Assembly (NCBI RefSeq): GCF_900113045.1
Contig: NZ_FONY01000004.1
Location: forward strand, 124,001 to 188,000
DNA from: Thermoflexibacter ruber
Lineage (GTDB): Bacteria > Bacteroidota > Bacteroidia > Cytophagales > Thermoflexibacteraceae
Direction: 5' to 3'
Length of the DNA stretch: 64,000 nucleotides
In this document: positions 34,257 to 60,237 of the stretch, piece after piece
Numbering within the stretch: the stretch's first letter is position 1
Layout of the letters: each line of letters begins with the position of its first letter
Notes under the pieces: generated by a model
Databases searched by the model: none
What the model saw: the letters and a program-made list of their open reading frames with translations, nothing else
Told to the model about the DNA's origin: nothing
Translations under genes and position numbers: made by a program

Positions 34257-36260
34257 TTACTCATTTTTTAACTTAAATTCGACAATAAAGTTCGCACCGT
34301 TGTCTATTTCGCTCTCACACCACACTTTCCCGTTCATAGCTTCTACATATTTTTTGACAATAGATAAGCCTAAGCCAATGGATTTTTCGCCTTGAGTGGG
34401 TCTGGCACTTAGCTGTTGGAATTTCCCAAACATCTTTTTCTTATCCTCCTCGCTGATACCTTGTCCTTGGTCTTGCACCTCAATTCTGGCAATATTTTCG
34501 TGCTTATAAACTCGCAAAAATACTTTTTTATTTGAGGGAGAGTACTTTATTGCATTGGAAACTAAGTTTTCAAATATCTGAGTAAGATAGTTTTTATCTA
34601 AGTTAGGAACGATAACCTGTGGATGGAGGTCTTTGATGATTTCTATGTTTTTAGCTTTTGCGTTGTCCTCAAAGTTTTTTGCTACACTTTCCATAATCAC
34701 GGAAATATTGAGGTCTTCCCTTTGCAGGTTCACTTTTTGTGCGTCTATAGCATTGACATCTAAGGTTTTGTTTATCATCAATGTCATGCGCTCTATTGCT
34801 CCTTTGATAAGCCTGATGTATTCCTCTTTTTCTTCTGGGCTTACTTCATTCTCACTCATTTGCAGGACATTGACTAAGCCTTTGATTTGGCTAAGAGGGT
34901 TACGGAGGTCGTGAGCGACTATACCTATCAGATGATTTTTTTCTTCATTGAGGTAGGAAAGTTCATGATTTTTCTGCTCCAATTCCATGTTTTGCAGAGC
35001 AATGTTTTCTTTTTGAGAGCTGATTTCTTCTTGTTGGTACAGGATTTCCAAATTCTTCTTTTCTAAAAGCCGGTTTATCTTATTTTTACTTTTTATCCCT
35101 CTATACAAAATAAAGGCAATCAAACAGATAAGCAAAAAACTCACTAATAAAAAAATATTCAAATAGCGTTGCTGCGCAAGGTTCTCTTCCCTCATCTGTT
35201 CGTTTTTCTTTAAAAGTTCTATTTCTTTGTCTTTACTTTCTGCATCGTGAATAGACTGCATTCCTGCTATTTGACGCGACATACTCTCATTCAGCACCGA
35301 ATCCTTGTAGGCATGATACAATTTGTAATAGTCAAAAGCTAAGTTAGAGTTGCCTACTCTCTCTGCCGTCAGGTAAAGCTGTCTATAGGCTTCAGCTATA
35401 TCAGCCTTAGAACCAAGCTGTTGCGAAAGTGTTAAAGCATCTTTAAACCAATCAAAGGATTTTTCAAATCTATTTTTTTCTCTAAAAACAATGCCTGTTA
35501 GAAGAAGGCTGGCAGCGGCATCGTATCGGTTATCTATGCTAATGAGGTACTTGTAAGCACTGCTCAAAAATGGTAAAGCCTCCAGATATTTGCCTTGGTC
35601 TATGTAAATTTGACCTTTGGTCATCAGGGCAAGTCCTTTATCATTGATATTCTCAAATTTTTGAGCAAGAAAAAAGGCTTTGTCCACGTAAAAAAGCGCA
35701 CTATCCAATTTTTTTTCTTTTCTATAAAACTCACCCAAATGTAGATAGAGTTGGGTCAGTTCCTTATTAGCATTGAGTTTCTCAGAAAGGGTTATGGCTT
35801 TCAATCTGTATCCTAATACTTTTTTTCTGTAAGTAGTATCATGCTCGCTTAGATGAAAGTTAAACAAAGCTACTTTGTCTAAAAGCCCAATGGTTAATGT
35901 ATCATATTTTTTCGCCTCAGCTATCCTTAGCCCTTCTAAGGCGTATTCTAATCCTTTGGAGTAATCACCCAAAATATGGTAAATTGACGCTAAGTTTTGA
36001 TAGGCAATCGCTAACTGATAGGGATCATCTATTTTTTTGGCAAGTTCGGTAGCTTGCTTAGCGTATTTGAATGCTTGTTGGGGAAAATTTTTTATCAAAA
36101 CCATGCTTAATCTATTGGCTATTAATAACTTAGCCCTGTCATTGTTAGTACGGTGCAAAGCACTAATCAGGCTATCAGCTACTACGGTCTGTGCTTGAGC
36201 ATGAGAGGCAGAGATAAAGAAAAATAATATGAAAATGATATGTTTGGAATGGATAAGCAA
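34257..36260 (-). CDS. TPR-repeat sensor histidine kinase
   Basis: The protein has 667 residues. A signal sequence (about 1-23) precedes a periplasmic array of tetratricopeptide repeats over about 45-330 (QLAIAYQNLASIYHILGDYS is one), then one membrane helix (about 367-387), a coiled coil (about 390-440), a HisKA domain with His450 in GIVAHDLRNPLSQ, and HATPase_c with NLVSNAIKY, DQGQGIS and GLGLSIVKKY. It senses something outside the membrane through the TPR domain. No response regulator gene is adjacent, so it is an orphan kinase. The NUC nuclease gene follows after 17 bases on the same strand. Confidence 0.92.
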   Translation of the reverse strand: MLIHSKHIIFILFFFISASHAQAQTVVADSLISALHRTNNDRAKLLIANRLSMVLIKNFPQQAFKYAKQATELAKKIDDPYQLAIAYQNLASIYHILGDYSKGLEYALEGLRIAEAKKYDTLTIGLLDKVALFNFHLSEHDTTYRKKVLGYRLKAITLSEKLNANKELTQLYLHLGEFYRKEKKLDSALFYVDKAFFLAQKFENINDKGLALMTKGQIYIDQGKYLEALPFLSSAYKYLISIDNRYDAAASLLLTGIVFREKNRFEKSFDWFKDALTLSQQLGSKADIAEAYRQLYLTAERVGNSNLAFDYYKLYHAYKDSVLNESMSRQIAGMQSIHDAESKDKEIELLKKNEQMREENLAQQRYLNIFLLVSFLLICLIAFILYRGIKSKNKINRLLEKKNLEILYQQEEISSQKENIALQNMELEQKNHELSYLNEEKNHLIGIVAHDLRNPLSQIKGLVNVLQMSENEVSPEEKEEYIRLIKGAIERMTLMINKTLDVNAIDAQKVNLQREDLNISVIMESVAKNFEDNAKAKNIEIIKDLHPQVIVPNLDKNYLTQIFENLVSNAIKYSPSNKKVFLRVYKHENIARIEVQDQGQGISEEDKKKMFGKFQQLSARPTQGEKSIGLGLSIVKKYVEAMNGKVWCESEIDNGANFIVEFKLKNE

Positions 36261-56971: not shown

Positions 56972-57946
56972 TTATTGTTTCCCTTGCTGATGGGGCGGGT
57001 GCTGTGCCTCAAACTTATCATACGCCATGACAATCTTCTTGACTAACTGGTGGCGAATCACATCTTTGCTTTCCATGCGTACAAAGCCTATGCCCTCAGT
57101 ATCTCTCAGAATATCAGCAGCATGGATTAATCCTGATTTTTGATTTCTTGGCAAGTCTATCTGCGACTCGTCCCCTGTAATGACCATTTTTGAATGTTCT
57201 CCCAAGCGAGTCAGTACCATTTTCATTTGCATTTGGGTAGTATTTTGGGCTTCGTCTAAGAGTACAAAGGCGTTAGAGAGCGTCCTTCCCCTCATATAGG
57301 CAAGTGGAGCAATCTCTATGACATTTTTTTCCTGATAAAACTTCAGTTTTTCTGAGGGAATCATATCCTCTAAGGCATCGTAAATAGGTCGCAAGTAAGG
57401 GTCTATCTTTTCTTTTAAATCCCCCGGCAAAAAGCCTAAGTTTTCCCCAGCTTCCACTGCGGGGCGGGTGATTATCAGCTTTTTGACCATTTTATTTTTC
57501 AAAGCCCTGACCGCCATCGCTACGGCAATGTAGGTTTTTCCTGTACCTGCGGGACCTAAGGCAAATACCAAATCGTTGTTGTAAATCGCTTGTACGAGTT
57601 TGAGTTGATTATGTCCACGGGGTTTGATAGCCGTACCTTTCGCTCCATAGAGAATGATGTCGTCTGCCAAATCGTGTAAGGGAATCTGGTCGGGGCGAGC
57701 ATGGAGGTACACCTGCACGTTGTCTAAGGTAACTTTGCTATATTTATTATAATGCTCTAATAATGAGTTGATAATCTCATTAATCCTTACGATTTCTGTA
57801 TCGTTGCCTTTGATGCGGATTTCACTTCCTCGTGCAATAATTTTGCTATTAGGGAAAGCCTGTGCTATTTCCTTGATGTTGGCGTTTTCTACGCCCAAAA
57901 AATCTACTAAGGAGATTTCTTCTAATTGTATAACTTTTTCTACCAA
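56972..57946 (-). CDS. PhoH-family ATPase (YbeZ-like)
   Basis: The protein has 324 residues. An N-terminal KH-like RNA-binding segment (about 20-80, KIIARGSEIRIKGND) precedes the P-loop ATPase domain: Walker A GPAGTGKT at 131-138, RPAVEAGENLGFLPGDLKEK as the PhoH signature, and Walker B VLLDEAQN at about 228-234 with ITGDESQIDL. YbeZ-like PhoH proteins are linked to rRNA processing, usually with YbeY, which is not in this window. It begins 20 bases after the stop of the large metallohydrolase gene. Confidence 0.93.
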   Translation of the reverse strand: MVEKVIQLEEISLVDFLGVENANIKEIAQAFPNSKIIARGSEIRIKGNDTEIVRINEIINSLLEHYNKYSKVTLDNVQVYLHARPDQIPLHDLADDIILYGAKGTAIKPRGHNQLKLVQAIYNNDLVFALGPAGTGKTYIAVAMAVRALKNKMVKKLIITRPAVEAGENLGFLPGDLKEKIDPYLRPIYDALEDMIPSEKLKFYQEKNVIEIAPLAYMRGRTLSNAFVLLDEAQNTTQMQMKMVLTRLGEHSKMVITGDESQIDLPRNQKSGLIHAADILRDTEGIGFVRMESKDVIRHQLVKKIVMAYDKFEAQHPPHQQGKQ

Positions 57947-57966: not shown

Positions 57967-60237
57967 TTATTGAACTTCGTTATAAATAGCCCTGATTCGT
58001 TTATTGTAGGTTTCTAAAAGTTTCCAATGCACAATCGGAATATCTTTCATCACAGTAGCAGTAATAGCAAATAAGCAAGTGTCTTTGGGCAAAATGGCTT
58101 TGACATTTTTCAAATCAAACTTGCGATGATGCCCTAATATAGTCCTGTCCCCTCCAAAAAAATCTGCCTTTTCCAGCCTTCCTATCTCATTGTCTATGTG
58201 CTTAATAGCGACTTCACCGTCAGCAATGATATGCAACATATCCTCATCTGCATTTCCATTAGCCGAAAAAGGATTGTTGAGGTATTTTTCACTTTGGAAC
58301 AGAGGAATCTGATAGTTATGAGAAAGCTGAATTTTCTGCATTTTTTTTGCTACCTGTGCCAAATTTGGAAAAGAAACCACATCGCCAAAGAGCCAAGTAC
58401 TTTGCAAAAATAAGATATTTTCCTCCATTCGTTTCAGTTCGCTGTAAAGATTATTTCGCGATACAAACTCCCTGTAAGAACTGCTTGGAATCTGCAAAAC
58501 GTGTATGTTGCAAGATGCCCAATAAGTTTCAGGCGAATGTAAGCCTAAATAGCCCGCATAAAACCCAATAAATGAACCTGCGGGAAGCGTATCGTGCTTA
58601 CCTGTTTTAGCATGTAGGAACTCCACTGAGCCTGTAATAAGCAAATACACATACTTAGATTCCTGTCCTTTCTTGAGCAAGAGCGAACCTGCATTATAAC
58701 TTACAATAGGATGATTGAGCAAATAGTTCAATTCATGCTCAGAAGCATTAGGAAAATAATTTTTCAGATGGTTATGCGCAAAAGTAATCAAATAATCATG
58801 GTTAGTAGGAATCAACACATCTACCATTCCAAAAGCAGAAGACGAGCCTATTTCCCTTTGCGAGAGAGTTAAGGGTTTGGAGGTGTGTGCCAAGACGATT
58901 TTATGCGATTTGTCTTCTCTGAAATCCTCTGCGTTGCCGTGAATCATTCCCCCACCTACGTCTATCTTTTTCAAGTGAGCGGGATACATATACTTGGCTT
59001 TGATTTGCTCAAACTGCTCCTCTGTAATACCGTTTTCCTTAGGATTGTTGGTAATCATTTTTCGTAAAACCTCATCGGAGGTTACATCGGCTAAGTGTGC
59101 ATATACCTTGTAGCCATCAATCCAATTTGCCCTGAAAAAGAAAATATTTGTTTCTACGGGGTGAGGCGAATAAACTGGCTTTACCTCCAAGCCATCTACA
59201 TCAGTCCACTCGTCAAAAGGCAAATCGTGAATATCAAAAAAACTGCTAAAACTTTCCTCTTGCATGGACATCAAAGCACATAGCTTTTTTGTTACGGCTG
59301 TGCGCACCAAGGGCGTAGCGTAATATTTGAACCTTCTATCTGTTCTGATGAGCGTAGTCAACCCTGCAAAGTGGTCGTCATGGGCATGGGTATGAAAAAT
59401 CCCTTCAATTTCGTTTACACTGATACCCAAATAGTTAAGGCTTGCTAAGATATTAGGTCCTGCATCTATAATATAAATCCTTCCTTGAAAAATAATGACG
59501 CTTGCCATGCAAGGACGGTGCAAATCCCAACCATCTCCCTCGCCTGAGTGAATGATGGCAAAGTATTCTCTATCAATGAAGTGATAACCAAGTTGATACG
59601 GAGGGTCGTAGAGTTCTCCCGCACCCAAATTCAAATCTACCTGTACTTTTTCATCTTGATAGCTTATTTGGTATTTATTAAAACTAATGCGTCTGATAAA
59701 AACACCATTGCGAATTTCTATATTCGTATTTTTTACAATTCGGCTGTCTATCAACTCATTAGAAGGGGTAATTTTCCCAAAAGCAAATTTTAGCTTTATT
59801 TTCATCATTTCTTGAGCCTCAGCCCAAGTTGCCCCAGCTTCTATCATTTCATCAATACTTACCAATCCGTAGTTCCCCCTATAAATATATTCCATTTGTG
59901 CTTTTACCTGCTCTTCTGTGCCTATGAGCATGGGCTTCATGCCCGTATTGTTAGGGTGATTGGGAATAATCATGCCTTGGAGGTAAAGCATTTGCAAGAC
60001 AGGAAACTCTGTGAGATTGGAAAAACTGCTGTTTTGCATCAGTACATCAGAAAGTAGAATTACATTGGGTCCTGTTTCGTAAACTACTCCCTCTTTTTCA
60101 ACTTCTTCTATTAACCCTCTCTTTTTTAGATGCTTTACTGTATCCGCAGGACAGCCACACAAGATATAGAGTTCTGCCTCTTTTATCTCTACCCAGTAAA
60201 CACCATTAATAACTTTAATTTTTTTGATTTTAGACAT
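57967..60237 (-). CDS. metallo-beta-lactamase-fold hydrolase fused to two cyclic-nucleotide-binding-like domains
   Basis: The protein has 756 residues. Residues about 1-60 resemble a small regulatory module (KEAELYILCGCPADTVKHLK). Residues about 220-455 are a metallo-beta-lactamase-fold domain: IDAGPN near 258-262, HTHAHDDHFAG with metal ligands His284, His286, Asp288 and His289, the later YAHLADV and the C-terminal VLAHTSKP (His451). Residues about 480-610 and 640-745 each look like a CNMP-binding beta-barrel (YLLITGSVEFLHAKTG, HIIADGEVAIKHIDNE), but the canonical phosphate-binding Arg and Ala cassette is degenerate. It is cytosolic. A ligand-controlled cyclic-nucleotide phosphodiesterase or other phosphohydrolase is plausible; the substrate is unproven. 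The phoH gene follows. Confidence 0.8.
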   Translation of the reverse strand: MSKIKKIKVINGVYWVEIKEAELYILCGCPADTVKHLKKRGLIEEVEKEGVVYETGPNVILLSDVLMQNSSFSNLTEFPVLQMLYLQGMIIPNHPNNTGMKPMLIGTEEQVKAQMEYIYRGNYGLVSIDEMIEAGATWAEAQEMMKIKLKFAFGKITPSNELIDSRIVKNTNIEIRNGVFIRRISFNKYQISYQDEKVQVDLNLGAGELYDPPYQLGYHFIDREYFAIIHSGEGDGWDLHRPCMASVIIFQGRIYIIDAGPNILASLNYLGISVNEIEGIFHTHAHDDHFAGLTTLIRTDRRFKYYATPLVRTAVTKKLCALMSMQEESFSSFFDIHDLPFDEWTDVDGLEVKPVYSPHPVETNIFFFRANWIDGYKVYAHLADVTSDEVLRKMITNNPKENGITEEQFEQIKAKYMYPAHLKKIDVGGGMIHGNAEDFREDKSHKIVLAHTSKPLTLSQREIGSSSAFGMVDVLIPTNHDYLITFAHNHLKNYFPNASEHELNYLLNHPIVSYNAGSLLLKKGQESKYVYLLITGSVEFLHAKTGKHDTLPAGSFIGFYAGYLGLHSPETYWASCNIHVLQIPSSSYREFVSRNNLYSELKRMEENILFLQSTWLFGDVVSFPNLAQVAKKMQKIQLSHNYQIPLFQSEKYLNNPFSANGNADEDMLHIIADGEVAIKHIDNEIGRLEKADFFGGDRTILGHHRKFDLKNVKAILPKDTCLFAITATVMKDIPIVHWKLLETYNKRIRAIYNEVQ

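Follow-up and report, generated by a model that had tools for sequence, protein, structure and literature searches.

A predicted cyclic-mononucleotide phosphodiesterase of the metallo-beta-lactamase type with two cyclic-nucleotide-binding domains in Thermoflexibacter ruber

Described relatives and domain layout

In Dictyostelium, the proteins GbpA and GbpB carry a metallo-beta-lactamase (MBL) domain followed by two cyclic-nucleotide-binding domains (CNBs), and according to PMC11988041 the binding of cyclic nucleotide to those domains activates the MBL phosphodiesterase. Apyc1 and YhfI, both homodimers, likewise hydrolyse cyclic mononucleotides (PMC9117128); together with Rv1339 they are short MBL enzymes with an HxHxDH motif and a PF12706-type domain (PMC9117128, PMC9293780). 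A bacterial phosphodiesterase under CNB control is also known in Bdellovibrio Bd1971, which has an N-terminal sensor and an EAL catalytic domain that cleaves c-di-GMP and is activated by cAMP (PMC6717892). Tandem CNBs are otherwise found in the regulatory (R) subunit of PKA and in PKG, where kinases are controlled and not a hydrolase.

We analysed a stretch of 64,000 nucleotides from Thermoflexibacter ruber (contig NZ_FONY01000004.1, positions 124,001 to 188,000), referred to here as the window. It encodes a 756-residue protein, present as a single copy in the 5.5-Mb genome, whose reading frame has the position, strand and length given in the initial annotation. The features discussed below are as follows.

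57967..60237, minus strand: whole gene, 756 aa, predicted cAMP phosphodiesterase (pseudo-MBL, MBL and two CNBs)
59563..60237, minus strand: N-terminal module, residues 1-225, predicted MBL-like fold without the HxHxDH motif
58798..59562, minus strand: catalytic MBL domain, residues 226-480 (PF12706, PF00753 and PDB matches)
59371..59388, minus strand: HAHDDH, the HxHxDH metal motif, residues 284-289; further ligands H359, D384 and H451
58399..58797, minus strand: CNB1, residues 481-613 (PF00027; PKG and CRP profile matches; column comparison)
57970..58398, minus strand: CNB2, residues 614-756 (second PF00027 stretch; tandem CNB structural match; column comparison)
56972..57946, minus strand: phoH, downstream neighbour (PF02562, E 5.9e-95), 20 bases from the 756-residue gene

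As in GbpA and GbpB, a single chain carries an MBL domain and then two CNBs. The Dictyostelium enzymes, in the same source, are tied to cAMP or cGMP, whereas the 756-residue protein is bacterial, is often clustered with adenylyl cyclase and has non-canonical CNB cassettes. It is reasonable to suppose that it works as GbpA and GbpB do, a likeness drawn from the published layout and not from sequence. With Apyc1, YhfI and Rv1339 it shares the MBL fold, HxHxDH and the PF12706-type domain, and to these short enzymes it adds an MBL-like N-terminus and the two CNBs. In the literature searched, with most subscription papers outside its scope, we found no description of a bacterial phosphodiesterase combining an MBL domain with two CNBs; an earlier report is possible. 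Bacterial proteins with this layout bear on the origin of the Dictyostelium enzymes.

The N-terminal module had been annotated as about 200 residues without a clear match, which stands for sequence (residues 1-225 matched nothing in Pfam or the PDB) but not for structure, where the predicted fold is MBL-like. Modelled separately (pLDDT 72, pTM 0.71), the module found mostly MBL enzymes as its best Foldseek matches (PqqB, 1.0e-3; Apyc1, 2.4e-3), with lactonases, PNGM-1 and tRNase Z among the further ones, at TM-scores of no more than about 0.3-0.4. Because hhalign, run against the MBL domain of the same family, gave no sequence homology (probability 0.1), the assignment rests on structure, and with moderate confidence we regard the module as MBL-like by structure and devoid of metal ligands.

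Long-form tRNase Z (ELAC2) also joins a metal-free, MBL-like N-terminal half to an active C-terminal MBL half. The 756-residue protein resembles it in having such an N-terminus, here taken from a predicted structure, before an active-type MBL domain, but it lies outside the RNase Z family, carries CNBs and belongs to a cyclase context. Mean column identity among the homologues is 73% in the N-terminal module, 72% in the MBL domain, 57% in CNB1 and 50% in CNB2. At this level of conservation, equal to that of the catalytic domain, the module probably has a part in catalysis or assembly; it probably packs on the catalytic domain, and perhaps substitutes for half of the dimer found in other class II enzymes.

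The metal site and the adenylyl cyclases beside homologues

The catalytic domain matched PF12706 (Lactamase_B_2, 3.4e-10) and PF00753 (6.7e-7). The intact HxHxDH motif was annotated with exact residue numbers (His284, His286, Asp288, His289), as HAHDDH begins at residue 284, and the rest of the two-metal site is also there (H359, D384 and H451), completing the HxHxDH plus His, Asp, His set of the MBL-fold (class II type) cyclic-nucleotide phosphodiesterases. All seven ligands are invariant in an alignment of 39 homologues from Cytophagales, Desulfobacterales, Lentisphaerae, Neomarinimicrobiota, Magnetococcales and Alphaproteobacteria, apart from one truncated homologue that stops short of H451; the loss of metal ligands across orthologues, named beforehand as grounds for abandoning the annotation, was thus not seen. 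By profile, the nearest solved relatives of the domain in the PDB include Apyc1 (E 3.8e-5) and RNase Z/ELAC1-type enzymes. By itself, the metal site does not separate a phosphodiesterase from other MBL hydrolases.

The neighbours of the gene are more informative on this point. Of 34 homologous loci, 17, drawn from six genera and three families, have a class III cyclase (PF00211) as the next gene upstream in the same orientation (genus g27 contributes seven loci, g5 four, g43 and g238 two each, and g35 and g245 one each). At nine loci (L045, L046, L103, L107, L111, L112, L116, L051 and L110) two class III cyclases stand in tandem upstream. All 26 adjoining cyclases carry a K...D pair (K in IKT[I/M]GD, D in YD[I/V]WG), which we take to denote the adenylyl type, its meaning having been established from mammalian cyclases; the three cyclases of the window genome also have K and D at the base-recognition positions. 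The window gene itself is not beside a cyclase. On the protein tree, cyclase adjacency needs at least five changes, and has therefore been gained or lost repeatedly.

The three adenylyl-type class III cyclases of the window genome (G000 contigs C47, C84 (40793) and C106) all lie outside the window, one of them on the same contig as the gene and about 140 kb away. At another locus, the upstream adenylyl cyclase (L052:6691-7908) has a CNB domain of its own (PF00027, 7.3e-18).

Genus g5 (L053, L054, L055 and L056) offers the simplest cyclase/phosphodiesterase pair to test. There the cyclase and phosphodiesterase genes share about 4 bases, the homologue stops after the MBL domain without either CNB, and the adjoining cyclase is the only strong one in the genome. 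TPR repeats were present in both of the two g5 adjoining cyclases that were scanned. An adenylyl cyclase and a dedicated phosphodiesterase with sensors of its own, often in one cluster, would make a directly testable circuit. To our knowledge, cAMP removal in Bacteroidota has been little described.

The presence of phoH 20 bases from the gene, on its downstream side, was correctly recorded in the initial annotation; the link to nucleotide or RNA stress signalling proposed from it did not survive comparison of the homologous loci. Neither phoH nor any other adjoining window gene has a counterpart beside the homologues in any of the loci compared, and in two other members of the genus, with a protein 85% identical, the same neighbours, phoH included, are absent beside the gene. 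We therefore exclude phoH from the system: the conserved partner that emerged from the survey of neighbours is the upstream adenylyl cyclase.

Co-occurrence points the same way. Among 291 genomes sampled evenly across the order, 34 carry the gene, and every one of these has a strong cyclase, compared with 40 of the 257 non-carriers (Fisher 5e-24, kinship ignored), where a strong cyclase is one with E below 1e-40, a cut-off set after the scores were seen. As the cut-off was post hoc, kinship was ignored and the carriers in this sample are confined to four families, we give adjacency more weight than this figure. Class III cyclases are likewise encoded by each of the seven carriers found outside Bacteroidota. 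In a wider Bacteroidota sample (n=395) the gene was found in the window genome alone. The family is real, well conserved and narrowly distributed in bacteria.

Our favoured reading, to which we give a probability of about 0.72, makes the 756-residue protein a class II (MBL-type) phosphodiesterase that acts on cyclic mononucleotides, with cAMP as its likeliest substrate, and that is regulated through its CNBs. We favour it because the MBL ligands are invariant, the domain is kin to Apyc1, adenylyl cyclases stand upstream and co-occur with the gene, genus g5 has its overlapping pair, a separate RNase Z exists in the genome, and an MBL domain with two CNBs is the layout of GbpA and GbpB. The upstream cyclases and the Apyc1 kinship thus lend support to one option of the initial annotation, a predicted cyclic-nucleotide phosphodiesterase with feedback control. 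We infer that the two-metal site (H284/H286/D288/H289/H359/D384/H451) would hydrolyse the 3',5'-cyclic phosphate of cAMP supplied by the class III adenylyl cyclases of the cell, and that nucleotide binding to the two C-terminal CNBs would alter catalytic activity, an allosteric control whose direction is likewise a matter of prediction.

Two other readings concern the substrate. A nucleotide-controlled MBL hydrolase that processes nucleic acids, whether as an RNase or otherwise, would fit the phoH neighbour but seems to us highly improbable. Among NCBIfam models, RNase Z (TIGR02651, E 2.9e-10) does fit the MBL segment best, but at 39.7 bits the match falls far under the cut-off of 292.95 and is confined to the motif region, and a bona fide RNase Z that passes the cut-off (295.7 bits) is encoded elsewhere in the genome; identity as RNase Z was rejected on these grounds, and the conserved neighbour is adenylyl cyclase rather than phoH. 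It is also distinctly unlikely that another cyclic nucleotide (cGMP, cCMP/cUMP or a cyclic dinucleotide) is degraded, for example in an anti-phage setting. Apyc1 acts on many cyclic mononucleotides (PMC9117128), and its Pfam model PF23023 matches here, weakly and below threshold (E 0.0025; 17.8 bits against a cut-off of 50). However, the partner cyclases have adenylyl-type residues, and a search of phages, plasmids and viral contigs found no relative that would point to an origin there.

The CNB domains and their candidate ligands

The two C-terminal barrels were recovered as PF00027 matched twice (E 1.5e-10), and structural matches agree. A full-protein AF2 model, built from an input of ten sequences, reached a mean pLDDT of 79 and a pTM of 0.82, and its best PDB matches were tandem CNB structures, from PKG and from the PKA R subunit (Foldseek E 2e-14 to 5e-14, probability 1.00; 2.4e-14 against the PKG tandem CNB). 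Because tandem CNB structures are the best matches of the model, we take the barrels, as the initial annotation had supposed, to be CNB folds; the outcome that would have spoken against it, barrels of some other fold, was not observed.

The phosphate cassettes are another matter. Alignment to Plasmodium PKG places the canonical Arg nine residues past the Glu. In CNB1 the ungapped Arg position is occupied by S568, and every full-length homologue lacks Arg at this column. The CNB1 Glu is replaced by Phe in the window genus and most related copies (IGF...S568); across the Cytophagales copies another residue stands in for the cassette Glu. The 'RA' of TYRAAS, found in CNB1 of several homologues, was considered as the cassette Arg and rejected, since it falls five positions too late in the PKG alignment. 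In CNB2, R705 stands at the Arg position in the window genus only, homologues outside the genus being without Arg there; the Glu is Gly, and K-F follows the Arg in place of R-(S/T)-A (FGG...R705-K). The earlier statement that both barrels lack the classic Arg therefore holds for CNB1 and is not wholly correct for CNB2 of the window genus, where R705 is present but its partner Glu is missing. Neither domain has a canonical phosphate-binding cassette (FGE with R-(S/T/A)-A).

With cassette residues altered in both domains, canonical cAMP binding by the CNBs is doubtful, and cAMP is perhaps not their ligand, as the canonical phosphate contacts are missing. Control by a ligand other than cAMP, the other option of the initial annotation, is possible for the CNBs, given the missing cassette Arg. 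There is a precedent: trypanosome PKA regulatory subunits (PKAR), which have lost the same phosphate Arg, bind inosine, guanosine and adenosine and not cAMP, and this nucleoside binding further requires a ribose-binding Glu (PMC10959531).

Two alternatives follow from these domains, both of which keep the MBL domain as a phosphodiesterase. The MBL domain may act on cAMP while the CNBs sense a non-cyclic ligand such as 5'-AMP or a nucleoside, so that the product or another purine feeds back on the enzyme; we consider this a genuine but minority possibility. It agrees with the absence of the CNB1 Arg from all full-length homologues, with the replaced Glu in Cytophagales and with the appearance of the Arg-less, nucleoside-binding trypanosome PKAR among the structural matches. 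However, the ribose-binding Glu residues of the trypanosome proteins were not identified in these CNBs, loss of the Arg may equally mean weak cAMP binding or no ligand, and the GE part of the CNB1 cassette is kept in some copies outside Bacteroidota (Lentisphaerae and two alphaproteobacterial copies). Alternatively, and in our view unlikely, the CNBs may not be ligand sensors, serving only to hold a dimer or dock partners beside a constitutive phosphodiesterase. Genus g5 manages without CNBs, and the lower conservation of these domains than of the other two would agree with such a role; against it, full-length copies across several phyla keep both CNB folds, joined by an invariant TWLFG linker. 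If the CNBs have been retuned, the enzyme that ends a cAMP signal would be gated by a different purine, and the altered cassettes would be a possible case beyond trypanosomes of a CNB serving a ligand other than a cyclic nucleotide.

Receiver-fused copies and other control variants

In the copies from Desulfobacterales and Magnetococcales (L033:1712-4423 and L038:5497-8184) the N-terminus is a receiver domain of the response-regulator kind (PF00072, 3.6e-17 and 1.1e-26); both copies adjoin histidine kinase genes, and they cluster on the protein tree (87/94). We read this layout as phosphorelay control of the predicted phosphodiesterase, which would be alike in logic to Dictyostelium RegA and unlike it in catalytic domain. 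Since copies with CNBs only, with receiver and CNBs, and without CNBs are all present, one predicted phosphodiesterase core is joined to CNBs alone, to CNBs and a receiver, or to neither.

As well as the favoured reading, we put forward a broader and more tentative proposal, which we think rather unlikely: that these are cAMP phosphodiesterases whose tandem CNBs have been retuned from cyclic nucleotides and are gated by another purine (5'-AMP or a nucleoside), with the core shuffled among its own CNBs, a fused receiver and neither. Within the window, a TPR-containing histidine kinase (34257-36260) matches one of the TPR-containing cyclases upstream of homologues (28% over 167 residues), which perhaps reflects a sensor layout shared in these bacteria.
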